From: Martelella mediterranea | GTDB lineage: Bacteria > Pseudomonadota > Alphaproteobacteria > Rhizobiales > Rhizobiaceae | DNA: 52,010 nt | Assembly (NCBI RefSeq): GCF_004342225.1 | Contig: NZ_SMAR01000026.1 | Location: 1 to 52,010 of the forward strand | Direction: 5' to 3' | In this document: in pieces, positions 12,782 through 36,348 of the stretch | Position numbering within the stretch: position 1 is the first letter of the stretch | Layout: each line of letters begins with the position of its first letter | Notes under the pieces: generated by a model | Databases searched by the model: none | Told to the model about the DNA's origin: nothing | Seen by the model: the letters and a program-made list of their open reading frames with translations, nothing else | Made by a program: the position numbers and the translations under genes

Positions 12782-12867
12782 TGTCTTAGGTAGTGTCTTG
12801 GGCTGCCAAATAGCGCATTTTGCACCATCGCCCATTGGGCCACACCCGCTGTAGCGTGACGCGCGGT

Positions 12868-12900
12868 TCCGGAATTTTGACAGCACGATCCGGAATTTTG
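12868..12900. repeat. Direct repeat near the prophage right end
   Basis: The 12-mer TCCGGAATTTTG occurs at 12868-12879 and 12889-12900, 21 bases apart. It may be a transposase-binding array of the phage right end. It also resembles the repeated termini of IS21-family elements, which could mean an IS remnant. I cannot decide between these. Confidence 0.55.
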
Positions 12901-12958
12901 CTTTTTTTCGATATCCAACCAAAAGCTTCCATGACCGGATAACGTCAGCAGTTGAACT

Positions 12959-13915
12959 TCAACGCTGATTTGAAACCTGCCGGAAAATCATCAGAGGTGT
13001 CACACCGTACTGGTCACCTCGTCTGCCTAAAAGCGTCTTAGCTGCCGGAACTAGTTGATCTATGAGAGCTGCAAAGACAGATTGCTCTATTGCTGAGGGG
13101 TACGAGGGTTCCCGGCTTTGAGATGCGTTCTGCGCAGAAGTGTCGCCTGCTACGAAGCTTTCCTCATCATCAATGCCAGGAATAGCGTCCAAGATGCCTA
13201 AGACGAACCATTCTCCAGGTAGGGTGACTCCATGCTTAAGAAAAAGATCACTTGAAGAAACGACGAGTCCGTCTTCACGAAGTGAAGCCCAAAACGACTT
13301 ATCTCCGCTCTGCAGCTCCATTTGGACGCCATGCGGCAAAAGTCCCAATAGCTCCAGACCAAAGGCTTCCGCGCTTGGTTCGGACGATGGCTTTTTTTCC
13401 TTACGCCGCCGAACTTGCCGACTCTCATTTTCCTGTCCACCCGATGAGATAAGAGCACTCACCGAAGGAAGTTTCATTGCGTTTTGGATCAAGCCCAAAT
13501 CTCGAACAGATAAGCCTCCTGAAAACAGTACGATCTGGCCTATGCGTGCTGTTTTCACTTCACGATCCAACATGTTGCGGTCCTGAAGATAGTCTAGAAG
13601 CGAAAGGGCATTTGACCAATACGGGTCGTAAGTATGTTGAGCCTCTTGATGATAACCGGCAGATGTTCCGGTTTCGTGATGGCCGCCACCCTTGACTATT
13701 CCCGGTACACCACCCGAACCCGAAACCCGTCCGATTTCGCTTTTGCCCCGACCAGCACTTTCGTGGCGAGATAGCGCTTGTAGGTGTCCGAAATCATCGA
13801 ATTGCGACAGAAAAGAACCCACACGATGAGCGTCGTAATATAGGAAATCAAAGACGGAATCTGTGCTTTGATGTCCTTGCGCCGCGCCTGATTGTGTCTT
13901 CTTTTCGTCTGACAT
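12959..13915 (-). CDS. Right-end cargo protein, unknown (DUF6414-like N terminus suspected)
   Basis: A 318-residue protein with no signal peptide or membrane segment. The N terminus (about 15-45) reads FDFLYYDAHRVGSFLSQFDD, a pattern I associate with DUF6414-type proteins found in accessory loci. A Ser/Gly-rich stretch (about 50-85) and a Lys/Arg/Ser linker (about 165-185) follow, then a second folded region. No catalytic motif is recognised. It is the last gene before the prophage right end, the usual site for lysogenic cargo in Mu-like phages, and its base composition is visibly more AT-rich than the tail genes. The GTG at 13918 precedes the chosen ATG. It overlaps the next upstream small gene by about 68 bp in another frame. 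Confidence 0.75.
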   Translation of the reverse strand: MSDEKKTQSGAAQGHQSTDSVFDFLYYDAHRVGSFLSQFDDFGHLQALSRHESAGRGKSEIGRVSGSGGVPGIVKGGGHHETGTSAGYHQEAQHTYDPYWSNALSLLDYLQDRNMLDREVKTARIGQIVLFSGGLSVRDLGLIQNAMKLPSVSALISSGGQENESRQVRRRKEKKPSSEPSAEAFGLELLGLLPHGVQMELQSGDKSFWASLREDGLVVSSSDLFLKHGVTLPGEWFVLGILDAIPGIDDEESFVAGDTSAQNASQSREPSYPSAIEQSVFAALIDQLVPAAKTLLGRRGDQYGVTPLMIFRQVSNQR

Positions 13916-14072
13916 CACGCTCTACGTCCTTTGCGTCTTTTTCTGTGTTTTCTATCCGTTCGGCCAAGTCATCACTGAGCTTTGGGCATACCTTTTGAAC
14001 TGCAGCCATGAACCACAGATGGGAGGACGCTCGATTTGTGTTTCGATCAGACAATGCTTTCACCGTGCTCAA
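13848..14072 (-). CDS. Small charged protein, first gene of the right-end cargo pair
   Basis: About 71-74 residues. The start is TTG at 14072 or, better spaced from AAGG, GTG at 14063. The middle is strongly charged and probably helical (DDLAERIENTEKDAKDVERD), and the C terminus is basic. It overlaps the 318-residue gene, suggesting coupled translation of a two-gene unit. The 65 bp between it and the methylase gene is AT-rich and may hold a separate promoter. No family recognised. Confidence 0.55.
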   Translation of the reverse strand: MSTVKALSDRNTNRASSHLWFMAAVQKVCPKLSDDLAERIENTEKDAKDVERDVRRKEDTIRRGARTSKHRFRL

Positions 14073-14137
14073 CCTTCCACGACCTTACTACACTGGCGCA
14101 TATAACAAAATATCTATCCGCGTTTGGGCGGCCTAGT

Positions 14138-14977
14138 TCAAATTCCGCCTACTAGAATTTCAGCCGCCATGCGCAAAGGCTTTGCTGGCGTGATGATGAC
14201 CTCCTTCACGCCCTTCCCATTCCCCTCCGAGATCGAATAGGTGCAATCGACCTCCTCGATGTCGAACCGTGAGAAGGTTTCGAAGACGCCTTGAACCGCG
14301 TTCAAAGACAGAATGAAGGTGCCTTGAAGCCCTTCGAGAACATCTGCCATTGCCTCAAAATCCCCACGGCCGAAGACGCCGGTGCCGTAGTCGGTCTCGT
14401 TGCCCCAATATGGCGGATCGAGATAAAAGAGCATGCCCGGCCGATCATAGCGGCGAATGAACTCCTGCCAGGGCAGGCATTCGATCACGACACCGGCAAG
14501 CCGCTCGTGGATGTCCTCCAGCGTTGAAGCAAGCTTGGTCAGGTTGAAGCGGGCGCTGGTGGTTTTGCTGACGCCGAAATTGCGACCGGCCACCTTGCCG
14601 CCGAAGGCCAGACGCTGAAGATAAAGAAAGCGGGCCGAGCGCTCCAGATCGGTGAGCGTCGTCGGGTCTGTCTTCATCAACCGTTCGAATTCGCGACGGC
14701 CGGATATCTGGAAGCGAAGCGTATCCATGAACTGCGGAAAGTGGCGCTGCAGGATGCGGAAGAAGTTGGCAACATCACCGCTGATATCGTTGATCACTTC
14801 TGTTTTCGGCTGGCGATCGCGGCGCAGGAAGACGCCACCCATGCCGACGAATGGCTCGGCATAGCCATCATGATCGGTCGCGTTGATCCTGGCGATGACG
14901 GTTTTCGAGAGGATGCGCTTGCCACCGATATAACCGGCCGCAGGCGTGACCGGCGTCACCGGCTGCTGATTTACCAT
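14138..14977 (-). CDS. Phage DNA adenine N6-methyltransferase (D12 class)
   Basis: A 279-residue Dam-type methylase. The AdoMet-binding motif is YIGGKR near residue 16-21, followed by YAEPFVGMGGVFL, and the catalytic motif is DPPYWG (about 190). It methylates adenine in double-stranded DNA; recognition sequence unknown (GATC is only the common case). No restriction partner lies nearby, so it is an orphan. In Mu the corresponding right-end position carries mom, which modifies phage DNA against host restriction, and a similar protective role is likely. Confidence 0.9.
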   Translation of the reverse strand: MVNQQPVTPVTPAAGYIGGKRILSKTVIARINATDHDGYAEPFVGMGGVFLRRDRQPKTEVINDISGDVANFFRILQRHFPQFMDTLRFQISGRREFERLMKTDPTTLTDLERSARFLYLQRLAFGGKVAGRNFGVSKTTSARFNLTKLASTLEDIHERLAGVVIECLPWQEFIRRYDRPGMLFYLDPPYWGNETDYGTGVFGRGDFEAMADVLEGLQGTFILSLNAVQGVFETFSRFDIEEVDCTYSISEGNGKGVKEVIITPAKPLRMAAEILVGGI

Positions 14978-14998
14978 TTCAAATATCTCACGACTCAG

Positions 14999-15112
14999 TC
15001 ACAAAGCCGCTGCCCGCTTTTCGCGGGTACGGGTGCGACGGTTATCGAGAATTGCTGTCGGGCGGGTTCGGTCGCCAAACTTGACCCCGCCGCCAGGGCT
15101 TGCCCTGGTCAC
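14999..15112 (-). CDS. Possible 37-residue basic peptide
   Basis: A short frame starting at GTG fills the gap between the fibre assembly gene and the methylase gene. The product is Arg-rich (DNRRTRTREKRAA near the end). There is no convincing ribosome binding site. It may be spurious, and the 144-bp gap may instead carry regulatory sequence. Confidence 0.2.
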   Translation of the reverse strand: MTRASPGGGVKFGDRTRPTAILDNRRTRTREKRAAAL

Positions 15113-15121
15113 CCGTCAGCG

Positions 15122-15670
15122 TCAGTCAGACGGCCACACGATTGCATCATAGATCGCCTGCGCGGCCGCGACCGTCTCAGCCACCTTGATCTGCTCTTTT
15201 GCGCCGATCCTGATCGGCTCGATCTGAGCGCAGATCGCCACCCACTGTTTTTGCATCGTGTCGATGACCGTTGCGACCTCTGCGACCGTTTCGCCGGTGA
15301 TACCAACCTCAGCCACCAGCAGCGGATAATCCGCATCGACCGGATCGGTTTCCGCCAGATAGGCTTTGGCCTGACTGGCTTTTTCGAGGTAAGCCATGGC
15401 CTGACCAGCGCCGGTGGTGATGTATTTGGCGCGGATGTCTTCGGCATCTGCGTCAATGCGGTCCGAGAGACTGGACGTTACGGCGGATAATTCCGGCCCC
15501 GGCGGAAAGGCAAAAGCCCCGCCCTCCTGTCGGTGCATGCCTGCCGCAACATCATCCGATACAGCCTCAAATTGCGCGGCAATGTCGGCATGATAAAGCT
15601 CAGACAATGCTTTGTCTGTCTCAACGATCTCAGCGACGATAGCGCCGCTCATACGTGCATAACGTGTCAT
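15122..15670 (-). CDS. Tail fibre assembly / chaperone-like protein
   Basis: A 182-residue protein directly downstream of the fibre gene, where fibre chaperones usually lie. The C-terminal half is helical and Ala-rich, ending QAIYDAIVWPSD. Central features include a Pro/Gly-rich hinge (FAFPPGPEL). No strong family motif; the call rests on position, size and general resemblance to DUF4376-type fibre chaperones. Confidence 0.55.
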   Translation of the reverse strand: MTRYARMSGAIVAEIVETDKALSELYHADIAAQFEAVSDDVAAGMHRQEGGAFAFPPGPELSAVTSSLSDRIDADAEDIRAKYITTGAGQAMAYLEKASQAKAYLAETDPVDADYPLLVAEVGITGETVAEVATVIDTMQKQWVAICAQIEPIRIGAKEQIKVAETVAAAQAIYDAIVWPSD

Positions 15671-15679
15671 GATAACCTC

Positions 15680-16474
15680 TTAATATCTGATGATGACGCC
15701 GCCCTGTATACCCTCAGCTTCCCACTGGAAGCCGCCGGGACCGGCGGCTAGCGATCCGCCACCACCCGGCCATGTCGCACCGGCAGCACTCAGGCCACCT
15801 TTTCCACCATGAGGACCGGCGCAGTCGCCGCCGTAACCATAAGGATGGTGTCCAGACAAACCATCGCCACCGGCTTGGCCGGTAAGACTAATATCGCCGC
15901 CAACACCTATTCCGCCTGCCCCTCCAGCGGAGTTCAGAATTCCACCGCCACCACCGGTCGCCGAGCAGTACGCACCGAAACTGGTTGTACCGCCCGCAGG
16001 CCCATTCGTAGTCCCTGATATGTTGGTGTCGCCGCCGCCACCCACTGTAACCGAGACCTCGTCACCCTCAGTCAACAAAATCCATTTGCCAGCGTAGCCA
16101 CCACCGCCGCCGCCCTCACCGACATTAGATGCTGCGTCATAGCCGCCGCCACCACCGCCGCCATAGCACTCAACCCAATACCAGCCGGTTTGAGGAGTAA
16201 TAAATGTATGACTACCCGCAGTGTAGTAAACAGTTGTGCCATGTTGGAGGCCTGCAAGTTTCAGCGCCTGACTGAGCTGTGTCAGATCGCCGTCATCCGG
16301 TACTTGCCCAGACTCTTCGATGACATTCAGAACCTCTTCCTGCACGGCGTTCAGCCAATTCGCGGTGACAACGGTGCCCTCCTGGCTGCCACTTCCGGTC
16401 GACAGTATTTCATCCTGAAACCCGCGCTTCCCGCCGCCAATATCGGCGACAGCAGTGCCTGTAATCCGGTCCAT
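15680..16474 (-). CDS. Tail fibre/adhesin with polyglycine-rich C-terminal domain
   Basis: 264 residues in two parts. The N terminus (about 1-75, MDRITG...ANWLNAVQEEVLNVIE) is the attachment segment common to short tail fibres of Mu-like and other phages. From about 105 onward the protein is dominated by glycine, with runs such as GGGGGGGYDAAS and GEGGGGGG separated by short variable stretches, ending GGVIIRY. This layout recalls polyglycine-II tip domains of receptor-binding adhesins. It follows the baseplate gene gp48, so it is the likely host-range determinant. Confidence 0.8.
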   Translation of the reverse strand: MDRITGTAVADIGGGKRGFQDEILSTGSGSQEGTVVTANWLNAVQEEVLNVIEESGQVPDDGDLTQLSQALKLAGLQHGTTVYYTAGSHTFITPQTGWYWVECYGGGGGGGYDAASNVGEGGGGGGYAGKWILLTEGDEVSVTVGGGGDTNISGTTNGPAGGTTSFGAYCSATGGGGGILNSAGGAGGIGVGGDISLTGQAGGDGLSGHHPYGYGGDCAGPHGGKGGLSAAGATWPGGGGSLAAGPGGFQWEAEGIQGGVIIRY

Positions 16475-16477
16475 GTT

Positions 16478-17071
16478 CTACGCTCCCGAATATTGGAAAA
16501 TAAGGCGCGTGTGCGCCGGTTTGATAAGCTGGAAATAGGCTTCAGCTGAGCCGTTCACTTCAAACGCTGCAAGCGATTGACCAGCCCGGTTCCTGCCCGC
16601 TCTGAAGGCGGAGACATCGACGGCAGGCATCGATATCAGCCAGGTAAACTGCTCGCCTTCGGCAATGAGCGGTGTGCCAGCCCGCAACACGCCAGCGCGT
16701 GATGGCCAGAACTCGGTAATAGTGATGGCAAGGCCGAGCATTTCACCGATCCGCAGGAAATACGGTATCGACTGCCCGCCCTTGGCCGTCCAGCGCTGGT
16801 GGGCAAGCTTGCGTCGGTCATCAATGCCGGAAAGCGCGAGATCGCGCTTTGCCGGGTCAGGGCCAAGGACGCGCTCGAAATCCGCAAGACAATGCTCGGC
16901 CGTGCGTGGATCAATCTCGTTCATCATCGCCGCGGCGGCCTGTTCAGCAGTCAGGATTTCACCGGCGACGGCCTCGTAAATTGCGTCCATGACGCCGCCC
17001 TCGGCAGGCCGGGCAAACCCAAATGGCCAATGGGCGCGCAGTGCGCGGATAATGTCAGCAAACCGCCTCAT
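16478..17071 (-). CDS. Mu gp48-like baseplate protein (DUF2313/YmfQ)
   Basis: 197 residues. Members of this family sit between baseplate protein gp47 and the tail fibre and join the fibre to the baseplate. The characteristic middle segment DIIRALRAHWPFG and DPRTAEHCLADFERVLG...RWTAKGGQ is present. Start MRRFADI at 17071 has AGGA upstream; a longer start would overlap gp47. Confidence 0.85.
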   Translation of the reverse strand: MRRFADIIRALRAHWPFGFARPAEGGVMDAIYEAVAGEILTAEQAAAAMMNEIDPRTAEHCLADFERVLGPDPAKRDLALSGIDDRRKLAHQRWTAKGGQSIPYFLRIGEMLGLAITITEFWPSRAGVLRAGTPLIAEGEQFTWLISMPAVDVSAFRAGRNRAGQSLAAFEVNGSAEAYFQLIKPAHTRLIFQYSGA

Positions 17072-17090
17072 GTCTTTTTCCTGCCCACGC

Positions 17091-18245
17091 TCATGCTTCC
17101 GCTGCCCATGTGATGGCTCCGGCAACCGGGAATTCATAATCGCCGAGTGTGTAGCTTTCGGATGGCATGATCAGATCGTGGGCATATTCACCGTTGGCGG
17201 CCGAGATTTCCTCCGACAGCCTGGAGCGCTCGATTGTGGCACCGATCGGCGTCTCATTGCCATCGTCATCGTCGCTTCCAAGTGTGTTTATGAAACGTTC
17301 AAAGGCTTCCTGAATGGCCGCCCGCACGACGGGTGTGTCCGGTCGCGCCCGCACCGTGATCGGCACTTCGGTGATTTCAGCCGCATGGACGCTGACATAA
17401 GCAGTCACCGGGCGAACGCCTTCGGAGGTCAGTGGGTTGCCCAGATGATTGAGCATGGCGGTGCGCTCTTCATCGGTCGGTGCGCGGCCGCTGCCATCCT
17501 CATTGCGCATTGCCACGACGACACCGACAGAGCCACGGCCGACAACATCCGGGATCACACGCACGGCCTTGACGGCAAAGACATCATCCAGCCAGTCATA
17601 ATAATCATAGCCAGCACCGCCCTGCGGTGGTTTGCGGATATGGGCAATGGTGGCGGCCTGCAGCTCTTCCGGCTGCATTTCGTCAGCGCCACCGGCAAAG
17701 GCGGTTTCAACCGTGATCGTGTCGATCTCCGGCCATGGATCAACGGCGGTAAACTGGATGCCGGTTTCATAGTTGCTTTCAGTGCCCGCCAGAGCCGCCG
17801 ATGCGCTAACCGTCACCGATCCACTGGCATCAATCGTCGCCTCCTCAGTCGTCGCAAAGATCAGACCCTCGGATGACGACATCTCAAGACCTGCTGGCAA
17901 GGCTGTGTCGGGATCGCCGGTAATCGTAACGGTCCCGATGGCAAAGGTGGCCGGGCGCTGTTTGACGCCGAAAATCGAAGCGTGACGGGCAACGAATTCT
18001 TCTTCGGCCGTATCGACAAAATATTGCCGACCCCACCAGGCGATGTGGCTATGCAGGGATCGCAGCTCAAGCGAGACCGCCCGCAGCAACCAGGCAAGAA
18101 GACCGCGCGATGATCGGACTGCAAAGGAAATGGCTTTTGGTGTATGGCGAATGCCCTTGGCATCCAGCACTTTCGACATGACGGTTTCCAGCGTGGCGGC
18201 CATGCGCGCGGCAATTGCTCTTGCATCCGGGATCGGCCTGCTCAT
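17091..18245 (-). CDS. Baseplate protein J-like (Mu gp47)
   Basis: 384 residues, a wedge component of the contractile-tail baseplate. Recognisable features are the N-terminal helical region, the central repeated beta segments (VTITGDPDTALPAGLEMSS, a J-family hallmark) and GYDYYDWLDDVFAVKAVRV. It overlaps the gp46-like gene by 4 bp. Confidence 0.93.
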   Translation of the reverse strand: MSRPIPDARAIAARMAATLETVMSKVLDAKGIRHTPKAISFAVRSSRGLLAWLLRAVSLELRSLHSHIAWWGRQYFVDTAEEEFVARHASIFGVKQRPATFAIGTVTITGDPDTALPAGLEMSSSEGLIFATTEEATIDASGSVTVSASAALAGTESNYETGIQFTAVDPWPEIDTITVETAFAGGADEMQPEELQAATIAHIRKPPQGGAGYDYYDWLDDVFAVKAVRVIPDVVGRGSVGVVVAMRNEDGSGRAPTDEERTAMLNHLGNPLTSEGVRPVTAYVSVHAAEITEVPITVRARPDTPVVRAAIQEAFERFINTLGSDDDDGNETPIGATIERSRLSEEISAANGEYAHDLIMPSESYTLGDYEFPVAGAITWAAEA

Positions 18246-18706
18246 CGGTCAATCCTTTTGGAAATGGTGATGGCTTCACCGGCAACCGAACATCTGAGCC
18301 GGATCATATTGCGGGCATGCCACCATGCCTCGACCTCGGCCGCATTGCCGGTCATATCTTCAGACCAGAACAGGCTGTCGCTGGCATAGTATTCTGTCAG
18401 CAGCCGGGTTTCTTCGCTCTGCTTCGCGCGCGACAACAGCCAGAGCCTTGAGCCTGCGAACCGGCCATCGCTGTCCAGGGCGTCGCCGGGGCTGCCGCGC
18501 CGTTCCTGAAGCGATGACGGGTTTGCGCTCCACTGCGTGCGGCCATCCGGCAATTCGTCGCCGTCGAGCGCACGCGCATCAAGGCCGATCGACAACAACA
18601 TCGGGGTAACCGGCGTGGTGTCGATCGCCAGATCGCCGTCTTCCGCGATGGCAAGATCGCAGGACCGGGCTTCAGCATTGAGGATAAGGGCGGCATCGCA
18701 AAACAT
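18242..18706 (-). CDS. Mu gp46-like baseplate protein
   Basis: 154 residues from the ATG at 18706. GP46-family proteins correspond to the gpW/gp25-like lysozyme-fold wedge component. The conserved DLAIAEDGDLAIDTTPVTPMLLSI stretch and the SRLWLLSRAKQSEET segment support the call. The 55-bp gap upstream holds no better start, although the frame is open further. Confidence 0.8.
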   Translation of the reverse strand: MFCDAALILNAEARSCDLAIAEDGDLAIDTTPVTPMLLSIGLDARALDGDELPDGRTQWSANPSSLQERRGSPGDALDSDGRFAGSRLWLLSRAKQSEETRLLTEYYASDSLFWSEDMTGNAAEVEAWWHARNMIRLRCSVAGEAITISKRIDR

Positions 18707-18761
18707 GCCCGCGAGAATGACATGCGCGCGCGATGACCGTTCATGTCTCCTGTGGGAGGGG

Positions 18762-19283
18762 TCAGTCCATTTGTGGGCTTGGCGGCGGACCACCAGGATG
18801 ACCGTGACCGTTATATTTGTCACGCATTTCCTGCATCGAACCGTTCTTGTCGGTCACATCACCGGTCGCTTCGATATCACCTTCGACCTTCAGGATCTGA
18901 GCGGTAATGAACACACCGGCATCCGTCTTGATCGTGATCTGCGCACCGGTCTTGATATCGAGCGTGCCGTCAGCTTTCAGCACCATACGGTCGCCACCGG
19001 CATTGTAAAGCCCGACCTCGTTTTCCTTCAGTCCACCCATGCGCGCCGACGGATTGGCAACCGGCAGCACGACCAGGTCGCCTTCATCGCCGCCAACGGC
19101 CAGCACGATCGCCAGCGCGCCGTCAACCGGTACATGGGCGGCAAAGCCATAAGGCTGCATGACTTCGACGTTGTGCCGCCAGACACCGTCCGCCACCTCG
19201 ACCGAGGCGGTCTGCAGTGCGCCGTCATCTTTCACGTTTTTCAAAGTGGCGCGGCGGATCATGCCGCGATTGGTGTCGGTCAT
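18762..19283 (-). CDS. Baseplate spike protein V-like (Mu gp45)
   Basis: 173 residues. The N-terminal OB-fold (about 1-85) leads to a repetitive beta-helix (LKADGTLDIKTGAQITIKTDAG) and a C-terminal tip containing NGHGHPGG. In the P2/Mu spike family a His-x-His at the tip binds iron in the trimer apex, and HGH here matches that. This is the membrane-piercing needle. Confidence 0.9.
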   Translation of the reverse strand: MTDTNRGMIRRATLKNVKDDGALQTASVEVADGVWRHNVEVMQPYGFAAHVPVDGALAIVLAVGGDEGDLVVLPVANPSARMGGLKENEVGLYNAGGDRMVLKADGTLDIKTGAQITIKTDAGVFITAQILKVEGDIEATGDVTDKNGSMQEMRDKYNGHGHPGGPPPSPQMD

Positions 19284-19340
19284 GTCAGTTCCTTTCCGCG
19301 CGTTGCGAACGGAAAAGTCTGCAACTTTTCCTGCCCGCGC

Positions 19341-20528
19341 TCATAGTCTCTCTGCTGTCGTATCCAGCGCCTTCTTCTTTTTCGCAGGCTTGTTCTTGCG
19401 TTGCTTCTTCTTCGGGTCGCCCTTCTGGAAGGCATCCGGAGAGGTCACGGCAAGAGAGGTGATCGCACCGTCATCGCCGTTTTGAATGAAGGTCACCTTC
19501 GAAATCAGCATGTCGCGGTTGACGTCATTGAAGGCATCGGCAACCGAAACGATCGTGTTCGGCCGCCAGAGCGTGCCGTCCACGGAATGACCGCGCATGA
19601 TATAGGTAATCTCTTCAGAAGCACCGCGCGCTGTGTTGCGCCGCCATTCCGCCTCGGCCTTTGCCGCATCGTGATCGGCCTTGGTGCGCGCCAGATAGAC
19701 TTTCGGGCGATAGCGATTGATCTCGTCGTCTTCAGCAACGCCGGTGGCGGCTGTGCCAGCGCGTTCGGCATTGGTTGCGGACCCGTCGCTGGCGTTTCTG
19801 TCTTCCGGCAAGAGCGGTTCGGCCGTGGTGTCGAGCTTGGCCTGACCGCGCTTTTTGCCCGCCCGCTCGCTGGTGCCACGAACCACTGTCTTTGAGTACC
19901 GGCCTTCATCGCTCTCGTCGATTGACGCCTTCAGGACATTGCCCGGAAGGAATATCGAACCAGCGGCCTTTTCCTCGCCGGTGCGCGTGATCACGACATT
20001 GCCAACGCCATCGGACAGCACGCGCACCTGTCTCTGCCGTGCGCCTTTCTCGATCGCGGTGAACGGGCTTTCGTCCAGATCGATCGAGTAACGCGCGAAC
20101 GGTTCGCCGGTATCGACCTCGGATCGAACGCCAAGGCCATAAGGTTTGACAATCCGTTTGACCGCATCTTCCAGTTTGACATTGTGCATCTCGGCTGGCG
20201 TGTCATCGACGAGCGCTGTGCAGTCGACCAGATCGCCCAGCTTGCAACGGCCTTCGACCGTAATGTCGGCAAACTGGCTTTCGATATTGGACGAGCGTTT
20301 TTCAATATGGCCGTTCAGCACGGTCGTGCCGTCGGCCTTGATCGAGACTTTCGCACCGCGTTTCAGGCGTTTGTTCTTTGCACCATGAGCGTGGACGAGT
20401 GTGTCCGAGGAGGCTTCTTGGTCGCGGCAATAAAGTATGTAACTGGCCGTGAACTCTTTCATGTCGAGCTTGACCTCGATGCCGGTCCAGCCCTCAAACA
20501 GCGTGCCGTTGATCGTGACGTCGATCAT
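19341..20528 (-). CDS. Baseplate hub protein (Mu gpP/gp44)
   Basis: 395 residues, contractile-tail hub of the gp27/late-control-D fold group. Start MIDVTINGTLFEGW at 20528 forms an ATGA overlap with gpN. The C terminus is a Lys-rich tail (DPKKKQRKNKPAKKKKAL), unusual for a hub. Neighbours gpN upstream and gp45 downstream match the Mu order. Confidence 0.88.
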   Translation of the reverse strand: MIDVTINGTLFEGWTGIEVKLDMKEFTASYILYCRDQEASSDTLVHAHGAKNKRLKRGAKVSIKADGTTVLNGHIEKRSSNIESQFADITVEGRCKLGDLVDCTALVDDTPAEMHNVKLEDAVKRIVKPYGLGVRSEVDTGEPFARYSIDLDESPFTAIEKGARQRQVRVLSDGVGNVVITRTGEEKAAGSIFLPGNVLKASIDESDEGRYSKTVVRGTSERAGKKRGQAKLDTTAEPLLPEDRNASDGSATNAERAGTAATGVAEDDEINRYRPKVYLARTKADHDAAKAEAEWRRNTARGASEEITYIMRGHSVDGTLWRPNTIVSVADAFNDVNRDMLISKVTFIQNGDDGAITSLAVTSPDAFQKGDPKKKQRKNKPAKKKKALDTTAERL

Positions 20529-21757
20529 GGCTTCAAAACCTTGATCTCGCCTGCCGGAAGGCGTGACGGATGGCGCGGACAGTTGCGCGAAACGATGTCC
20601 TGCCACACCGCCTCAAGGCCTGCCGGATTGTCACCGGCAATATGGGCGGCAACAATCCATGCATCCGTTGGGCCGGTAAGCTGCAGCGTCAGCGTTTCCG
20701 GAAGCTGCCCGATGATTTCATTCAGTGCTGCCGTGACTTCGACCTTCAGCGTTTCGAGCGCGGAGACCAGCTCATCGGCCTCACCGGCGTAGCGCCCGGT
20801 GACAAGTCCAGAGGTCGCGTCGATCAGGCTGTCAGCCGATGAAAGCACAGACGATCTGACCGCATGCGCCTGTTCAGCACTGTCGAAAGCGGTATACGGG
20901 ATCTGGGCTGAAGCCTGCGCGATTGCATGGGCCGCAGCCACGGCCAGCAACGCCCGGTCGGGATCGGACGGGGCATCGCTGATTGTTCCGGACAATGCCG
21001 CTCCAAGGTTAAGGCCAAGGGCGGTCAGCGCGGCGGGCGTTGCCTGTTCCTCACGGATAGCCTCGGCAGCGGCAGCAATAAAAGGTATGTCCGAGGCTTC
21101 GCCGAAGCGGGATGTGAGATCGGCCACAGCCGTCTCGAAACCTTCCGGTGTTGTTGGTGCCAGGCTGGAAGCGGCATTTGTCAAGCGCGGCAGAAACCGT
21201 GCCGATCCGGCCACCGGCTGCAGATCACCAACCGCATCGCGCACGACACCGGCCGAACGATTGACCGCACGCGTGCGGGCGGCTGAAATCGAGCGGGATG
21301 AAACGGCCGATGAAAGCAGGGCAACAGCGGTACCGATCAGGGCGACGGCTGAAAGGATGCCGCCAAACCCGCCTGAAAGGCCTGTAAAGCCGGTTTGAAC
21401 GGTCTTGAATTTGGCGGAAAACCGGACGATCCGCAGCTCGCGTGAGGCAAGCGTGATCGTGGCCGGTTCTGCCAGAATGACCCGCATCGGCCCACGCCAC
21501 GGATGGATCAGCATCGCAGGCCCCGGCCGGTTGAATGCGGCCTCAAGCGCCAGTGCCTGCACCTGATAGAGGTCTCCGGCAATCACGCCGTTGAGCGTGA
21601 CCTCACCGGGATGACGCCCGAAATCGTCATAGGCCGCATCTTCAACGCCTGGGAAAAGATACTCGACCAGACGCCGCCCGGCCTTTGTGGTCGTGTCCGG
21701 CACATCAAAGGCGATGCCGCGATAAAAGCCCTGGATCAATCCTGGAAGCGTCGCCAT
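20525..21757 (-). CDS. DNA circularization / baseplate protein (Mu gpN)
   Basis: 410 residues. The N-terminal domain (about 1-120) carries the family pattern YRGIAFDVPDTTTKAGRR, HPGEVTLNGVI and LIHPWRGPM. The remainder is an Ala-rich helical region. Family members have been named for a DNA-circularisation role but in Mu gpN is a tail component. It is adjacent to the tape measure gene, sharing an ATG/stop junction. Confidence 0.88.
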   Translation of the reverse strand: MATLPGLIQGFYRGIAFDVPDTTTKAGRRLVEYLFPGVEDAAYDDFGRHPGEVTLNGVIAGDLYQVQALALEAAFNRPGPAMLIHPWRGPMRVILAEPATITLASRELRIVRFSAKFKTVQTGFTGLSGGFGGILSAVALIGTAVALLSSAVSSRSISAARTRAVNRSAGVVRDAVGDLQPVAGSARFLPRLTNAASSLAPTTPEGFETAVADLTSRFGEASDIPFIAAAAEAIREEQATPAALTALGLNLGAALSGTISDAPSDPDRALLAVAAAHAIAQASAQIPYTAFDSAEQAHAVRSSVLSSADSLIDATSGLVTGRYAGEADELVSALETLKVEVTAALNEIIGQLPETLTLQLTGPTDAWIVAAHIAGDNPAGLEAVWQDIVSRNCPRHPSRLPAGEIKVLKP

Positions 21758-24081
21758 CAGGGCATCCCCACAGCTTTGCCGGTATTTACTGTCGCCTTGC
21801 CTTTGCCTTTTGAATTCGCATTGGCGCTGGTAACCGACGTTCCACTCTCTGCCCTCACAGTGACATCAACAGATGCTTCCATATTGTTGTTCGCGGGCTG
21901 CTGGGGCATCTGTTGCGGCTGGACGCCACCGGTCCCGCCGAGCCATTGCGGCCGGTTCGACCAGCTCGGCCAGCTGATAACAGACGAAAGGTCGATATTT
22001 CCGACCGCGTCAACAATACGCGCGCCAATACCGCCAAACCACGCCACCAGATCCTCGACCTTACCTTTGACCGCATCCACCATGGCCTGCGCAGCCTTGG
22101 CACCGGCATCGCGGAAACCGGTCTCCATCTCGTCGGAATAGTCCTTCATCGTGAACATCGACTTGATGCCTTCCCAGAGATCGAGACCGGACGCCCAGCT
22201 TTTCAGGCTGGTCCACCATGCCTCAACCGTGCCACGTGCATCGGCCAGCTGCGCCCGGATGCCCGGCACGTCGATGCCGAACATGCCGTAAAAGTCGATA
22301 ACCTGGCTGTCGACCCAACCGGCGAAATCGGCCAGAGCATTCATCATGTCGGTCACGGCATTCCAGATGACTTCGGAAAATCCTCCGATGAAATTCGAGA
22401 TCGGCTCCCAATAGCGCCAGACCGCCACGCCAATGGCGGCAACCGCAGCGACGATTGCGGCAATCAGGCCCCAGACCGGCGCGGTGACGGTCGCAGCCGC
22501 CGCACCGATTGCGCTGAAGGCGCTGATCAGGCCACCGGCAACCCAGCTGATACCGGGAATGGCAAACAATATGCCGCGCAGGCCAACACCGAGACGGCCA
22601 AGCCATGAAAGCTTCACGCCATTCATGGCAGCGAGTGATGATTGCAGGGCAATCGATCCGGCTGCCGCGCGATAAAAATAAGCAGCAAGCCGCAAGGCTC
22701 CCTTGCCGGTAAGCCAGAGCGGCGAAAGGACGAGGCGCAGACCGGCAATCACGGGCGGCAGCACGAAACCGATGACGCCAAGCGCACCGCCAAGCAACAC
22801 GCCGGCCCCGGCAAAGCTCAGCGCCTTGTGCACGCCGCCATCCGTCTCCTTGTTCCAGGCACGCAACTGGTCAAGCCCGGCTTTCAGGTATCCATTGATC
22901 TGCGGCAGCCATTCGCCAAAGGCCAGACCGACTTCGCGAATGCCTTGCGTACCGATTTCCCGGAAGGTTTTGAGCTGGCGGTTCAGCCCCTTCATCTGCG
23001 TTTCAAAGTCGGCATCGATGACCGAGCTGTCGGCCTGATCCATCTTGTCGCGGATCGCCTTGTATTCATCGACATTGGCCATGAACGGGATCAGGAAATC
23101 CATGACCTGTTGATCCTGGAACAGTTCTCCAAGCCCGCCAGCGCCTGCGATCTGGACAAGCTGCTCGCGTACGGCATCAAGCGCCTCGGCTCCCTGAAGG
23201 CCGTTTGCCTTGGCCTTTGCCATCATCTCCGCGATCTGGTTTTCGGAAACGCCGGTCAGTTTCATAACCTTCTGCAGGACCGCTTCGATCGGGTTGATGC
23301 CTTTCGTCGCGGCGTCCTGCATCACTGCTTCGATGTCGACGCCCATATCCTTGAAGTTCTTGACCGTTGCCGGTGCGAGGATTTTTGAAAGAAAATTCTT
23401 CAGATTGTTCGCCGCCTCGGCGGGGTCGGACGTTCCTTTGCGGGCGATCTGCAGGGCAGCGCCCAGAAAGCCAACGGCTTCCTGTCCCTTCACGCCGAAC
23501 TTCGCCACCTGGCTTGTAAGTGACGGAAAATAGCGGGCCATGTCCTTGAGCTCGAATGCGCCCAGCTTGCCGGAGGTGACAAGCATGGCCAGCACCTTCT
23601 CAATCTGGTCAGCCGGAACGCCCAGCGTCATCATCGACGACGTCGCGACGGCGGCAATATCGGCCGTCGCCGCATTGGCCGCCGTGGAGACCTTGGCGAT
23701 ATCGTCGATCGCACCGTCAATCAATGCGCCATCTAGGCCAGCCGCATACATATTAGCGACGGCGGACGCGATCCCGTCCGAGGCCTGCCCGGTAGCAAGT
23801 GCCAGATCCTCAAACCGCGTCTTCTGGTCATCTATGAATTTGAAAGCCGCAGCGCCGGTCAGTTCCGCTGTGCCCGCCATATCCAGCAATTGCTGCTGAA
23901 ACTCCGCTGCGCCTGCAATCGGCGCCATAAAGGAGATACCGGCAATGGCCGCACCGACAACGCCGATGCGACCAGCAAGGTTTGTAAAGCCGCGCACCGT
24001 GCCGGAAAGACGGCGTAAAGGTCCGCTCATCAGGTCACGCAGGCGAACGAGAACATCAAGTGCCATCTGTCCGGCAGCCAT
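21757..24081 (-). CDS. Tail tape measure protein
   Basis: 774 residues, the longest tail gene. The N-terminal part (about 60-400) is helical and resembles the phage TP901-type tape measure domain (QDAATKGINPIEAVLQKVMKLTG). Several hydrophobic segments (about 425-470 and 500-560) probably insert in the host membrane at injection. The C terminus is Gln/Pro/Asn-rich and then Gly/Lys. Its start lies just after the frameshifted chaperone stop, the conserved order in tailed phages. Confidence 0.92.
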   Translation of the reverse strand: MAAGQMALDVLVRLRDLMSGPLRRLSGTVRGFTNLAGRIGVVGAAIAGISFMAPIAGAAEFQQQLLDMAGTAELTGAAAFKFIDDQKTRFEDLALATGQASDGIASAVANMYAAGLDGALIDGAIDDIAKVSTAANAATADIAAVATSSMMTLGVPADQIEKVLAMLVTSGKLGAFELKDMARYFPSLTSQVAKFGVKGQEAVGFLGAALQIARKGTSDPAEAANNLKNFLSKILAPATVKNFKDMGVDIEAVMQDAATKGINPIEAVLQKVMKLTGVSENQIAEMMAKAKANGLQGAEALDAVREQLVQIAGAGGLGELFQDQQVMDFLIPFMANVDEYKAIRDKMDQADSSVIDADFETQMKGLNRQLKTFREIGTQGIREVGLAFGEWLPQINGYLKAGLDQLRAWNKETDGGVHKALSFAGAGVLLGGALGVIGFVLPPVIAGLRLVLSPLWLTGKGALRLAAYFYRAAAGSIALQSSLAAMNGVKLSWLGRLGVGLRGILFAIPGISWVAGGLISAFSAIGAAAATVTAPVWGLIAAIVAAVAAIGVAVWRYWEPISNFIGGFSEVIWNAVTDMMNALADFAGWVDSQVIDFYGMFGIDVPGIRAQLADARGTVEAWWTSLKSWASGLDLWEGIKSMFTMKDYSDEMETGFRDAGAKAAQAMVDAVKGKVEDLVAWFGGIGARIVDAVGNIDLSSVISWPSWSNRPQWLGGTGGVQPQQMPQQPANNNMEASVDVTVRAESGTSVTSANANSKGKGKATVNTGKAVGMP

Positions 24082-24082
24082 G

Positions 24083-24696
24083 TCAGCTCTCCTTCATTTC
24101 CTTGCGCGCATGCATGATTGCGTTCCACCAGAAGATCAGGTCACGGCTGTCCATGCTCATGATTTCGGCCGCACCGAAACCGGAATGCTCGGCCAGAAAG
24201 CCGATCAGGACGTCCGCGTTTTCCGGCCACTGCTCAAAAAATGGTTCAGCACCCGGCCGCCATTGGCAATGTCGGAGGCGTCAAGCTTGTCCCAGACCGC
24301 ATTCATCACCGCCTGAGAGAGGCGGCAGGATCGAGCGAAGGTCACGATGTTTTGCATGTTGTCCGGCGCTTCGCCGATCACGCGGGTATCGAGACCATTC
24401 AGGCGATGAAACGTAAGGCTCTCGAAAACCTTTTCCTTAACCTTGCCTGACGCCCGAACCTTGATGCGAACGGTCTCGTAGAGCGGCAATGTGATCGTGC
24501 CGTCTTCGTTTCGGATGGCATGTGATGGCAGCTTGTCGAGCGGATCTGTGGCGTCTTCATCGACGATGTCATCGTCGTGAAATCCCTCTGTCTGCTCTTC
24601 GGCCTCAACAACTTCGGCGTCCTCAATGACAGCATCGTCCTCATCGAGGTCGATTGCGAGTTCGCTCTTTGTTTTGCCTGTTGTCCGGTTTGTCAT
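24083..24696 (-). CDS. Frameshifted tail assembly chaperone (gp41-gp42 fusion, 204 aa)
   Basis: A -1 slip at the heptamer TTTTTTG (complement of 24235-24241) in the gp41 frame extends the protein by 50 residues. The zero frame reads CAT TTT TTG; after slipping, translation continues GAG CAG TGG CCG and ends at the TGA at 24083-24085. The extension looks like real protein (LIGFLAEHSGFGAAEIM, then FWWNAIMHARKEM) and ends 1 bp before the tape measure start. Tail-assembly G/GT-type frameshifts are conserved in tailed phages including Mu. The fusion product is expected at a low fraction of gp41. Confidence 0.8.
24205..24696 (-). CDS. Tail assembly chaperone gp41-like, unshifted product
   Basis: 163 residues. 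The N-terminal 60 residues are very acidic and low in complexity (LDEDDAVIEDAEVVEAEEQ); the rest is the gp41-type domain (ITLPLYETVRIKVRASGKVKEK..., then LTFHRLNGLDTRVI). Start MTNRTTGKTK at 24696 overlaps the tail tube gene in an ATGA junction. The last nine residues (SSGRKTRTS) are specific to the unshifted form. Confidence 0.85.
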   Translation of the reverse strand: MTNRTTGKTKSELAIDLDEDDAVIEDAEVVEAEEQTEGFHDDDIVDEDATDPLDKLPSHAIRNEDGTITLPLYETVRIKVRASGKVKEKVFESLTFHRLNGLDTRVIGEAPDNMQNIVTFARSCRLSQAVMNAVWDKLDASDIANGGRVLNHFLSSGRKTRTS

Positions 24697-25055
24697 CCGA
24701 TGATCTCCTGCGGCTCGCCAGCCGACCATTTGAGTTCGATTTTGCCGCCTTCGCCGCCGGTGGTTTCCGGTTTGTCATCGGAAAGAAAGGCTTCTTCGAA
24801 GACGTATGTCTGGCCGGTGTCGCAAACGACCTGCAGCTCGCCTTCCTCGTGGTCGAGAAGGCTCACCAGCGACTGACCTTTTTCGAGGTTGGTGGTCGCC
24901 GTGACTTCCGAACCCTGAAACTCCTGGGCACGGGCAACGCCGCGACCATAGGTGACGACATTGTTCTTGATGCCGCCGAGGCGCAGTTTCGCGCCGGTTT
25001 CAACGGGGATCGTCCGGCCCTTCCAGACGATGTCGACAATGCCAAGTGTCTGCAT
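24693..25055 (-). CDS. Tail tube protein (Mu gpM)
   Basis: 120 residues. The inner tube subunit of the contractile tail, directly after the sheath gene. It is beta-rich, with the segment WKGRTIPVETGAKLRLGG and a Glu/Gly-rich end. Length and order match Mu gpM. Confidence 0.88.
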   Translation of the reverse strand: MQTLGIVDIVWKGRTIPVETGAKLRLGGIKNNVVTYGRGVARAQEFQGSEVTATTNLEKGQSLVSLLDHEEGELQVVCDTGQTYVFEEAFLSDDKPETTGGEGGKIELKWSAGEPQEIIG

Positions 25056-25070
25056 GGTGCACGGCCCTCC

Positions 25071-26555
25071 TTAGGCCAGAAATTCGAGAGACGAGGCGAA
25101 CACCATCTGATTGCCGACGACCTGAACGATCTGGCGCGCATTGGTGCGGTTCTTGTTATTGGGATCGCGCTCGAAGGTGGACGTCTTGATCGTCTCTTCG
25201 ACGTTCTCGATCCAGACGAGACCGCCATAACGCTGGCAGCGCGCAGCCCACGTGCCCTTGATCCGACCCGGCGAGACCACAGCGGAACCGGCTGCCGTAT
25301 CGCCCTCGCCACGGCGCGTCTGGAACTGCTTGTTGTCGTCGATCAGCTTGGCGCGCGGATAAAGCGTGTTGAAATAGGCCGACCAGTCATAGCGGATGCG
25401 CGACATTGTCGCCGGGACCATGATATCCATCCAGGCATCGTCGGTAACGCCAAGCGATGTCATCTTGTAGGTGGTCACCATGCGATTGATGACGGTCGAT
25501 CCGTCGTCAAGATGCAGATAGGTCGAGATGCCGTGCTGCAGCAGGAGATTGCGTTCTTCCTGGGTAAACTGGTCCTCGGCATCCGGCGCTTCCACGCCGG
25601 TCACGACAAGGCTTTTCAGTTGTCGGGCCGGATCGTTGGAAAGATGAAACGCAGCCAGTGCGCAATCGGCCGCTGCATGCACCCAGCTCGATGCCGGTGA
25701 GCGGTTGAGGCAGGACAGCGTCAGAAAGGCGCAATTGGTCAGATCGCCAAGGGAGACTGCTTCTCCATAGGTTGTCCGTTTGCCGGTAAAGCCATGGCAA
25801 TCGAGCTTGGCTGTGGCGACATAGCGTGTCTTCAGCCAGTCGGAGAATAGCTGCACGTTGGTCACGTCCGACCATGGGTGGACAAGCTTGGTAAACCAGC
25901 TGTTTTCGATCAGATCCAGCACGGCCTGAAGGTCAGGATTGCCAGCGCCACCGGCCATATCGGCTATGGCAATGGTCAGCCCTGAAGGCACCGGTTGAGC
26001 AAGCGTATCAACACGCAGGTCGATATCATTGCCGATCTCACCGCCATTCTTCGCCGTTACCGTCACAACACCGGCAGCGGCTTCCGCAGTCACAACAATA
26101 TCGGCATCGTCGTTAATAGCAGCGGCAAGCTTGGTTGCAAGGTCGGCCACCGCATCAGTGGCAAGCGCCGTCATGCGCACCTGCCTCCCGGCGATTTTAA
26201 AGCGCAAGACCGTCGACTGGGCTGCAGCACCGGTAAATGTGATTGTGCCTTCTGCCTTGATCGCAGCGGCATCGTCTTCCAGTGCCGTGACGAACAGCGG
26301 CGTGGTCTTGTTGACCTTGCGGAAGGCGGCAACCTGTTCAGCGCCGATCGAGCCACGACCGAAATAGGCAATCGCCTCATCGCCGCGTGTGATCTGGTGG
26401 GTTTGTCCAGGCTCCAGCGTACCGGTTGCCAGCTTGTGACCGGCCAGCAGAACCTTTTCCGGCCAGTCATAGACACCTTTCTGGCTGTAGTTCGGTTTGA
26501 CCTCGATAAAGACCGCAGGGTCGTACCAGGTCATCGGGATTTCATCGAAGGTCAT
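25071..26555 (-). CDS. Tail sheath protein (Mu gpL)
   Basis: 494 residues, the contractile sheath subunit. The N terminus IPMTWYDPAVFIEVKPN and the C-terminal domain (GTWAARCQRYGGLVWIENVEE...) match the Mu-like sheath family. An inserted Ala-rich beta domain (about 105-190) is the variable surface region. Its presence shows myovirus morphology. Confidence 0.93.
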   Translation of the reverse strand: MTFDEIPMTWYDPAVFIEVKPNYSQKGVYDWPEKVLLAGHKLATGTLEPGQTHQITRGDEAIAYFGRGSIGAEQVAAFRKVNKTTPLFVTALEDDAAAIKAEGTITFTGAAAQSTVLRFKIAGRQVRMTALATDAVADLATKLAAAINDDADIVVTAEAAAGVVTVTAKNGGEIGNDIDLRVDTLAQPVPSGLTIAIADMAGGAGNPDLQAVLDLIENSWFTKLVHPWSDVTNVQLFSDWLKTRYVATAKLDCHGFTGKRTTYGEAVSLGDLTNCAFLTLSCLNRSPASSWVHAAADCALAAFHLSNDPARQLKSLVVTGVEAPDAEDQFTQEERNLLLQHGISTYLHLDDGSTVINRMVTTYKMTSLGVTDDAWMDIMVPATMSRIRYDWSAYFNTLYPRAKLIDDNKQFQTRRGEGDTAAGSAVVSPGRIKGTWAARCQRYGGLVWIENVEETIKTSTFERDPNNKNRTNARQIVQVVGNQMVFASSLEFLA

Positions 26556-26558
26556 CGG

Positions 26559-26789
26559 TTAGTCCTTTTCAGCGGTTTTGGTTTTCGCCGGTGCGGGACG
26601 TGCCGCCTCGACAAGGTCGCCATCACGAAGGCGGCGGCGCACAAACAGCGTGTTGTTAACCTCAGCGCCTTCGGCAGGCACGATCACGCCACCGGGCAGC
26701 GCCACGGCCGCAACGGTCGTTTCCTTGCCATCATACCGGAATGTCAGCGTCCGGCCTTCGCCTGGCTTTACAAATTTCAGATCGGCCAT
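26559..26789 (-). CDS. DUF2635 family protein (Mu gp38-like)
   Basis: 76 residues, immediately upstream of the sheath gene as in Mu. The pattern LKFVKPGEGRTLTF and LPGGVIVPAEGAEVN fits DUF2635. Function unknown; the C terminus is Lys/Ala-rich. Confidence 0.8.
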   Translation of the reverse strand: MADLKFVKPGEGRTLTFRYDGKETTVAAVALPGGVIVPAEGAEVNNTLFVRRRLRDGDLVEAARPAPAKTKTAEKD

Positions 26790-26792
26790 CTG

Positions 26793-27365
26793 TCAGGCTC
26801 CCGTGATTTCGTCTTGTGGGGTGATGTCGTTGCTTTCCGCCAGCGACCAGGTGACGCCGAGCGCTTCGAAGTCCTCGGCTGTTTCAAGTTCGAGGTCGTT
26901 CGTGCTGGTGCAGAAGGAAAACTGAAAATCCACCTGAGCAAGCGCGATGTTGTCATCAGTGAAGCCATCTGCGGCGATTGCACTCGCGCCTGTCACTGTG
27001 AGCGTGCCAGCATCAGGAAAGCTGACGCCGTTCAAGACGGCAGCCGCAACGTTGACAATTGCATCAAGGCCGACGCCACGCGCATCGCCTTTGAACCTTG
27101 CCTCCAGCCCGCTCGATGTTGAGGTGAGCAGGTAAAGACGCCACTGCATAGAGCCAGCGAGATTGCGCGCACCGTCACCGACCTTCATGCCCAACCAGGC
27201 AAGGCCCAGAAACGGTGTCATACGGGCAAGCCGGTTGAACTCTCTCATCGTCATCGCCATCGGGACGCGTTCGAGGTTGAATACGCGTTCCGGAAAGGCA
27301 ATGCGCAGGCGCTTTGTGATCAGTTCATCTTGTGTGGCAATGACGGAGCGGTCGGAAATCATCAT
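26793..27365 (-). CDS. Mu gp37-like head-tail connector region protein
   Basis: 190 residues, between the gp36-like and DUF2635 genes, the position of Mu gp37. A helical N terminus (DELITKRLRIAFPERV) leads into a beta-rich body. Presumed part of the connector. Start ATG-ATG at 27365 overlaps the previous stop. Family assignment is mostly by position. Confidence 0.7.
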   Translation of the reverse strand: MMISDRSVIATQDELITKRLRIAFPERVFNLERVPMAMTMREFNRLARMTPFLGLAWLGMKVGDGARNLAGSMQWRLYLLTSTSSGLEARFKGDARGVGLDAIVNVAAAVLNGVSFPDAGTLTVTGASAIAADGFTDDNIALAQVDFQFSFCTSTNDLELETAEDFEALGVTWSLAESNDITPQDEITGA

Positions 27366-27799
27366 GCACCTCGCAGCGTGTTATAGGTGAAGTCGCGCGG
27401 GCGGTCGGAATAGCGTGGGCCGGAACCGACCTTTGAACCGGTCGCACCTTCTGCCAGTGGGGCGTCGAGATGGACGCGCCGCGCTGCAATGTCACGCAGC
27501 CACTTCAAAACCTCATCACGGCCTTTTTCCATATCGTCGGATGGTGTGACATGCTCGCCCTGGGCCAGCTCATAGCGGGCCAGAACGCAGGTTGCGCGCA
27601 CAAGATCAGCCGGAGGGACTGCCACCGGTATGGCGTAGTAGCCGCGCAGATAGCCTTCGATCATGGCTGTCGCATCGCCAAGAGCCTGCTCAACCCTGAC
27701 CGCATTGACGGTCTCGGCCGTGCGGTCTTCAGGGTTGGACAGCCTCAGCAAATGCGTCTCGCCAAAGCGGGCAATCATATCGGTGACAGTGGCGTACAT
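27362..27799 (-). CDS. DUF1320 family head completion protein (Mu gp36-like)
   Basis: 145 residues. MYATVTDMIARFGETHLLRLS at the N terminus is diagnostic of DUF1320 (split here only by a short linker in other members), with the helical middle DATAMIEGYLRGYYAIPV. Related to gp6-like head completion proteins that close the head and start the neck. Confidence 0.87.
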   Translation of the reverse strand: MYATVTDMIARFGETHLLRLSNPEDRTAETVNAVRVEQALGDATAMIEGYLRGYYAIPVAVPPADLVRATCVLARYELAQGEHVTPSDDMEKGRDEVLKWLRDIAARRVHLDAPLAEGATGSKVGSGPRYSDRPRDFTYNTLRGA

Positions 27800-27871
27800 G
27801 GTTGGGTTTTCCGTTCTCCGGGTGATGACATGGGCGGCATTCGCGCCGCCCATGCCGGGCGCGGCGGGAGG

Positions 27872-28279
27872 TTATTTCTTCGGCGTTGCCTTCGGTGCCT
27901 TTTCGGCGGCGTCCTTCAGCGTCTTGTTTTCCGCTTCAAGATTTTCGACCTTCGTCGTCAGTTCCTTGATTTTCAGGTCGTTTTCACGGGAAGCGCCTTC
28001 GTGGGCCGCAACTTCTTGCTTGAGGCGGGTCACCTCATTGTTTGCCTCTTCCAGAGCGTCATCCTTTTCTTTCAACGCCTGGCGGGCAGCGACGAGCGCT
28101 GACTGTGTCGTGGCGTCCGGGGCCTCGCCGTCAATCACTTCGAAGGATGGATCATCGCGGAATGCCTTGATCTGTTCCTCGCTCCAGCGATTAGCCGGAT
28201 AGGTTGCCGATGCCGGATGCTTGATACCGGCACGGCGCATGCCGGGGTTGCGGCAGATGATGGTGATCTTGTCAGCCAT
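27872..28279 (-). CDS. Mu-like coiled-coil protein (HI1506-related, gp35-like)
   Basis: 135 residues. The N terminus (about 1-50) matches the HI1506-type family with ANRWSEEQIKAF. A long coiled coil (about 60-122) precedes a Lys/Pro end. It lies between the capsid and gp36-like genes, as in FluMu. Confidence 0.78.
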   Translation of the reverse strand: MADKITIICRNPGMRRAGIKHPASATYPANRWSEEQIKAFRDDPSFEVIDGEAPDATTQSALVAARQALKEKDDALEEANNEVTRLKQEVAAHEGASRENDLKIKELTTKVENLEAENKTLKDAAEKAPKATPKK

Positions 28280-28336
28280 TTCGTTTCTCCTTCGGGCTTT
28301 GCGAAAGCCGCTCGTGTTCAGCAGTTTTCGAAAGGC

Positions 28337-28365
28337 CCCTGCGCGGTAGACGGCCCCGCGCAGGG
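28337..28365 (-). terminator. Hairpin after the major capsid gene
   Basis: A perfect 10-bp GC-rich stem (arm CCCTGCGCGG, 9-base loop) begins 13 bp past the capsid stop on the minus strand. No T-run follows, so it may act as an RNA-stabilising or partial termination element that favours capsid mRNA, rather than a full terminator. Confidence 0.55.
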
Positions 28366-28377
28366 TAATCCGGGCGA

Positions 28378-29271: not shown

Positions 29272-29305
29272 TGAAAAATCCTTTCAAGGGCGGTTTGAGC
29301 GGCCT

Positions 29306-29698
29306 TTAAAGCGCCTTCAGCCAGACGCCGGTTTCATCAACAAACCCGACCGTTCCGGCCTGCAGTTCGCCACCGGCATTGGTCAGCTGGTAGGTGTTGT
29401 CATCTGCGGCATAGACCGGTTGATTGATCGAAGACCCGTCTGTTCCGGCAAGCGGGATCTGCAGCATTTCCTTCGAGACGCTGACACGGACAGCGCCATC
29501 GCCACCGGCAGAATTGTCAGCGCGCTCACGTGCCCAGCCGACGATGGCAACGGCATCGGCATGGTCAGGTTTCACGGCAAGACCGGCTGCCGTCACGGCC
29601 ACCTGTGTGCCGCCGAACAAGACGGTGGATGCTGCCACCGGCAAAGCGGCAAAAAGTCCGGAGCGCGTGACGCGCTCGATATCGTTGGATGCTGCCAT
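29306..29698 (-). CDS. Capsid decoration-like protein
   Basis: 130 residues, Ala/Gly/Val-rich and beta-prone, between the protease and the major capsid gene. Small proteins here in Mu-like phages are capsid decoration or stabilisation proteins (DUF2190-like). Identity is by position and composition. Confidence 0.6.
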   Translation of the reverse strand: MAASNDIERVTRSGLFAALPVAASTVLFGGTQVAVTAAGLAVKPDHADAVAIVGWARERADNSAGGDGAVRVSVSKEMLQIPLAGTDGSSINQPVYAADDNTYQLTNAGGELQAGTVGFVDETGVWLKAL

Positions 29699-34161: not shown

Positions 34162-34164
34162 TGT

Positions 34165-36347: not shown

Positions 36348-36348
36348 A

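Follow-up and report, generated by a model that had tools for sequence, protein, structure and literature searches.

An overlapping DUF6414 gene pair in the cargo slot of a Martelella Mu-like prophage, a candidate mobile anti-phage module

What are the two overlapping open reading frames found at one end of a prophage of Martelella mediterranea, and what might they do for their carrier? The window, by which we mean the whole stretch of DNA analysed (52,010 nucleotides of contig NZ_SMAR01000026.1), contains a Mu-like prophage at 12850..50788, in which a domain search of the window recognized MuA (DDE_2, 4.7e-43), the MuB C-terminus (5.2e-22) and a Mu portal protein (4.9e-96), and both ends of which were located. 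The right terminus (12850..12906) is a motif common to sister prophages and starts with TGTAGCGTGACG at 12850; the left end is at 50788, and a 5-bp target duplication, CCCGC, flanks both ends (12845..12849 on the right side, with its partner at 50789-50793). An earlier note, made from the sequence alone, had placed the pair between a methylase gene and the right end of a Mu-like prophage, and the ends agree with this. The pair lies between the phage core genes and a phage end marked by a target duplication and, given the right end at 12850 and the CCCGC repeat, forms the final block ahead of that end.

Both reading frames of the earlier note are present on the minus strand (12959-13918 and 13848-14072). 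The larger gene (12959..13918) has 319 codons when read from GTG at 13918, or 318 from the next ATG at 13915. The smaller gene, which encodes a charged protein, ends in TGA at 13848-13850 and has 74 codons from TTG at 14072 (13848-14072) or 71 codons from GTG at 14063 (13848..14063). The GTG is our preferred start because GGAAGG occurs nine bases ahead of it and because this reading aligns with the small protein of L014, a related prophage discussed below. The two genes overlap out of frame over 71 nt (13848..13918, minus strand). A D12-class adenine methylase gene (14138..14977, minus strand; PF02086, 1e-21) is separated from the pair by a gap (14064..14137, minus strand) that contains no consensus promoter match; the consensus scan of 12850-15200 gave a single site, within the methylase gene, where 1.3 were expected. 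The AT-rich potential promoter once suggested ahead of the pair was therefore not recovered by the scan. The reported difference in composition does hold, with a GC content of 0.500 for the pair, 0.576 for the methylase gene and 0.597 for the tail genes (15122-24081).

Does the small reading frame encode a protein? We collected relatives of the large protein from 13 phage records, 80 viral loci (retained from 92) and 38 genome loci; one viral locus, L002, is either the window prophage itself or a copy. A TGA is found at one identical base in 104 of the 106 sequences carrying the DFLY motif, and the other two are entries of a single remote gene without a partner. Our working set of 64 loci comprises 51 dereplicated loci and 13 that were added by hand and not dereplicated; it omits L003/L004 (a single remote partnerless gene), L077 and L127 (gene start missing), and six near-copies (L047, L062, L063, L111, L113, L124) in which the TGA is identical. 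In all 64 loci the pairing is preserved, and a small ORF is present whose C-terminus is of one type and whose TGA stop always falls on one base of the DUF6414 gene. This stop takes its T from the last position of the codon preceding a conserved D, and its GA from the D codon itself. The preceding codon is TTT in 32 loci, TAT in 30, TCT in 1 and TGT in 1, its third base always being T; among the F and Y codons in the rest of these genes, 579 have T and 413 have C as their last base. Any chance figure for the fixed stop is overstated, as related loci are treated as independent; the pattern is still clear.

Within the overlap, entropies summed over 61 loci (three with insertions were dropped) are 15.0, 10.2 and 17.3 at the first, second and third codon positions of the small frame, and the small frame is the better conserved of the two. 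The tail of the small protein bears a motif glycine in 59 of 61 loci, R or K two residues later in 60, and L, I or V as the final residue in all 61. Because the stop is fixed in 64 of 64 loci, and because of the codon-position pattern, a chance ORF is ruled out: the small ORF is a real gene under selection. A DNA element of the aba type is unlikely to be the sole cause of the overlap, since third positions of the small frame take most of the variation. As a separate observation, the DUF6414 frame is broken in the records of L013, L097, L126 and L128, where the end of the small ORF is intact.

What families do the two proteins belong to? Membership of the large protein in PF19952 (DUF6414) is borderline: the called protein scores 26.6 bits, above the gathering cut-off of 25 bits, and a six-frame search gives 23.5, below it. 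DUF6414 is nonetheless the only Pfam family matched by this protein at E up to 1, and at a limit of 0.1 PF19952 is recovered in 46 of the 49 relatives that were aligned. The match to phrog_9699 is strong and spans the full length of the profile (1.8e-52, positions 2-269 of 270). The earlier note had reckoned with a known unrelated function of this family; PF19952 and phrog_9699 come without a stated function. DUF6414 was not named in the literature searched, which does not prove its absence from print. D24, Y27, D29, Q39, G44 and G298 do not vary among 58 aligned sequences, and variation is rare at W210, D244, R299, T307, P308, I311, F312 and R313. The predicted model is of mixed alpha/beta type (mean pLDDT 78.8, pTM 0.73), with low confidence at residues 58-87. 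No relative of solved structure was found by sequence, nor any fold match at 0.001 or better: the best PDB row in Foldseek has an E value of 0.11 and the best viral row, which is nameless, 0.0045 with a TM-score of 0.19. The top PDB rows resemble what we take to be OB-fold proteins, a hint only at a best E of 0.11. Distant PF19952 members (L003, L170-L172) are without an overlapping small partner of the window type; the remote partnerless gene of L171 lies beside ORFs that by eye resemble FRG-domain and similar defence-associated proteins.

The small protein is predicted to form two helices and a free tail, which bears the conserved motif (mean pLDDT 76.7, pTM 0.42). Two PHROGs of unassigned function, phrog_15141 and phrog_29688, are each matched by 26 of 49 small proteins. 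Additionally, 13 of the 49 match a PHROG labelled as membrane protein (best 3e-6), a poor fit to a cytoplasmic partner that counts against the reading we favour below. The window proteins themselves have peak 19-residue hydropathies of 1.33 and 0.57 and lack a long hydrophobic stretch, which makes a membrane exclusion protein unlikely, at least for the window proteins. PADLOC contains no model for the DUF6414 protein and gave only a weak match of the small protein to JetA (0.011); by PADLOC models the pair does not belong to a known anti-phage system.

Is the place that the pair occupies in the prophage a variable one? The methylase is closely related to others from its own genome and genus, and in 17 sister loci (L151-L167, at least 72% nucleotide identity) similarity to the window ends at 14159-14199, at the end of the methylase gene, which is the inner border of a variable slot. 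Beyond it the content differs from locus to locus, with other cargo or none; slots L152, L157 and L166 are interrupted by contig ends, and no clear cargo gene was found in L151, L153 and L154. A tblastn search of 19 loci, two of them with a more distant methylase, recovered the pair in none. The slot thus varies among related phages, which the earlier note had proposed to check, and the pair is not a fixed structural component of them. Ten proteins, chosen by us among the slot ORFs, were compared with PADLOC families. At 1e-5 five of them matched, and of nine window-prophage genes other than the methylase none did. The five are an RT-protease (RT-Protease_XI, 9.6e-158), a DUF2971 protein (PDC-S31, 2.8e-42), a relative of HEC-07 (4.7e-43), a DUF4238 protein (DUF4238-Pers, 1.8e-9) and an MrcB_N-HNH protein (mREase_IV, 2.1e-6). 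A sixth is dCTP-deaminase-like by Pfam. The five slot proteins with no PADLOC match are counted against an anti-phage reading. In the control set of ten other window-prophage genes the methylase alone matches PADLOC at 1e-5, and at the loose limit of 0.01 three of the nine others do so weakly (best 0.0003-0.0005). Slot proteins at L155:3338-4048, L159:2140-2922 and L162:3644-4582 have no Pfam or PADLOC match at 0.01 and are candidates for new accessory systems.

A 48%-identical pair is found at the same end of L014, a related Mu-like prophage with tail proteins 45-62% identical to those of the window; no other among the 29 loci tested has neighbors that match the window tail proteins. The proposal that the pair is accessory cargo is supported by the variable slot, the relatives of defence genes in sister slots, accessory positions in other phages and L014. 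In the window prophage, the pair would be the current occupant of a swappable slot that extends from the methylase to the right end.

The right terminus has a setting of its own. In nine of ten prophages with a recognized terminus, the window included, it lies 9-101 bp past the 3' end of a tRNA gene and always faces it (12659-12850 in the window; L151, L155, L158, L159, L160, L162, L163 and L164); L165 has a recognized terminus and no tRNA in the stretch examined. The nine tRNA genes are Ser-CGA (2), Ser-GGA (1) and Leu-TAG (6), and the Leu sites, being from related species, need not be independent. Among sister loci without a terminus, a tRNA gene is present in the slot region of L153 (Lys) and L154 (Arg) and absent from that of L152, L156, L157, L161, L166 and L167. 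A genome of 4.3 Mb typically has about 50 tRNA genes, so that some 0.1% of random insertions would be expected so near a tRNA. At five sites, the right-end motif occurs two to five times near a single tRNA gene (L163:2408-2797; L160:2896-2946; L155:2495-2541; L158:3657-4261; L162:2989-3121), as if repeated insertions had left them. The phage is a transposing one whose targeting is apparently tRNA-proximal. Such targeting by Mu-like phages is not reported in those parts of PMC5488378 and PMC12486242 that we drew on, which does not prove its absence from print.

Where else is the pair encoded? Its occurrence is rare and scattered: it was found in 2 of 397 genomes from the order and in 2 of 385 from the class, both counts including the window genome. 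It follows an S24-type repressor gene in a Klebsiella prophage and a repressor gene in Bordetella phage IFTN8; it is found just ahead of a large tail protein in Moraxella Mcat13 and Mcat17, and behind the tail assembly chaperone in Acinetobacter qsb1. One viral contig, IMGVR_UViG_2808606803_000002 (L061 and L072), carries two divergent copies of the pair. Neighboring genes were taken from a crude custom ORF caller and scanned if they had at least 75 residues (102 upstream and 92 of 94 downstream, two host ORFs of the window being left out). Repressor and regulator families lead the PHROG counts among the 102 upstream genes (phrog_4 and phrog_8, 10 members each). A local profile, seeded with the annotated L009 repressor and three neighbors that we picked, identified a repressor-like protein that is encoded on the same strand no more than about 350 bp upstream in at least 10 of the 64 loci. 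The same position, near or behind the prophage repressor, is given for rexAB and bstA in the part of PMC8585504 used here.

The pair has a second vehicle. In Nitratireductor (L093) and in MAGs of Phenylobacterium (L099), Reyranella (L103) and Methylocystis (L104), a gene for a 303-310-residue protein lies directly upstream, with a spacing that ranges from a 4-base overlap to an 11-base gap. Matches to PF12762 (DDE_Tnp_IS1595; 1.0e-37 to 1.0e-46) coincide with these four genes, their positions having been matched arithmetically, and PF12762 also matches fragments that precede the pair in L094 (5.2e-8) and L108 (2.8e-7). Inverted repeats of 27 to 38 nt surround transposase and pair in L093, L103 and L104, outside of which are perfect 8-bp repeats (CTTTTAAT, ATTTGAAT and AAACTTTT, respectively), so that these loci contain complete elements (L093:4860-6988; L103:133-2237; L104:255-2306). 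Incomplete cases are L099 (left end only), L094 (right end only) and L108 (transposase fragment). Given the transposase, the inverted repeats and the 8-bp duplications, the pair rides as an IS1595-type passenger in these genomes, where it is like the passengers of other IS1595-family elements. This is not its vehicle in the window, where the known IS end motif was not found beside it and where a transposase, inverted repeats and an 8-bp duplication enclosing it were likewise not found. No report joining IS1595, phage defense and passenger genes was found in the literature searched, which again does not prove absence from print.

What might such a pair do? Its accessory sites in unrelated temperate phages, the defence-filled slot and its carriage by transposons make a defence or addiction module the simplest explanation. 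On balance, we favor the reading that the pair is a mobile anti-phage module, by which the lysogen is most likely protected from other phages. What we observed is a pair that stays together, a constant overlap, selective constraint on the small frame, a slot of changing content and transport by phages as well as transposons; we infer the binding, the trigger, where the proteins act and their effect on phages. Both ORFs would act as one inseparable, horizontally mobile accessory module. The small helical protein would be translated just before the DUF6414 protein, could dock on it via its conserved C-terminal tail and might thereby restrain or license it; infection by another phage would release or trigger the DUF6414 protein, which may act within the cell, possibly on nucleic acid, to abort the infection. 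Counting against the anti-phage reading, the position of the pair also suits toxin-antitoxin, lysogeny-control or host-benefit genes. More tentatively, the pair could represent a new and widespread class of two-protein defence, a sensor or inhibitor and an effector locked against recombination by their out-of-frame overlap, which moves in temperate phages and IS1595-family transposons.

The main rival, which we consider rather unlikely, is a toxin-antitoxin system, in which the tail of a small antitoxin encoded upstream blocks a DUF6414 toxin, the pair persists because its loss harms the cell, and effects on phages are possible side effects. It would account for a small gene that precedes a larger overlapping one in 64 of 64 loci, for the scattered occurrence, and for the carriers, since prophages and IS1595-type elements both gain from addiction. 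However, the small protein, with its two predicted helices and a tail, contains no DNA-binding domain by Pfam, and the matches in sister slots are to defence families and not to toxin-antitoxin families. That the pair instead acts on the phage that carries it, by tuning repressor, induction or transposition, is improbable: a repressor gene is often near, but the pair is also found among tail genes, at the far end of Mu-like phages and in IS1595-type elements with no phage repressor adjoining. Least credible is a single fusion made by +1 frameshifting at the stop of the small gene (CTT TGA, as in the RF2 gene, which frameshifts +1 there), with the small ORF as the N-terminus of a longer DUF6414 protein; the frames are one base apart, every stop is a TGA at one fixed position and CTT precedes it in 26 of 64 loci, the window included, but the last codon is another in 38 of 64, for which reason we reject this as a general mechanism, and the large genes of the window and Klebsiella have their own start codon and a purine-rich site inside the small ORF.

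How does the anti-phage module that we favor compare with known systems? BstA, a prophage abortive-infection protein, has a KilA-N domain, whereas the large protein of the window is only DUF6414 by Pfam, and two proteins stand in place of one. RexB of phage lambda is a membrane protein, unlike either window protein, neither of which has a long hydrophobic stretch; the pair differs from RexAB also in its small gene coming first, in its out-of-frame overlap and in the lack of a Rex family by Pfam. In the part of PMC8585504 used here, BstA resembles the pair as a single effector-sized protein of mosaic occurrence that is often encoded behind the prophage repressor, and RexAB as two genes in the repressor region. 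A position behind the repressor is seen in other loci, and in the window the pair is instead at the Mu-like right end. Pseudomonas phage Fc02 has two overlapping ORFs with exclusion activity in its immunity region, but its products of 7.9 and 20.7 kDa and their different arrangement, as described in PMC9936078, set it apart.

From two anonymous ORFs the analysis arrives at a module that is defined, can be tested and has some 64 loci for comparison, and part of the uncharacterised DUF6414 family gains a partner and a likely setting. The cargo slot in this group of alphaproteobacterial Mu-like phages offers a place to look for defence genes. Should the anti-phage role be true, the pair would be a defence module common to temperate phages and IS1595-type transposons.
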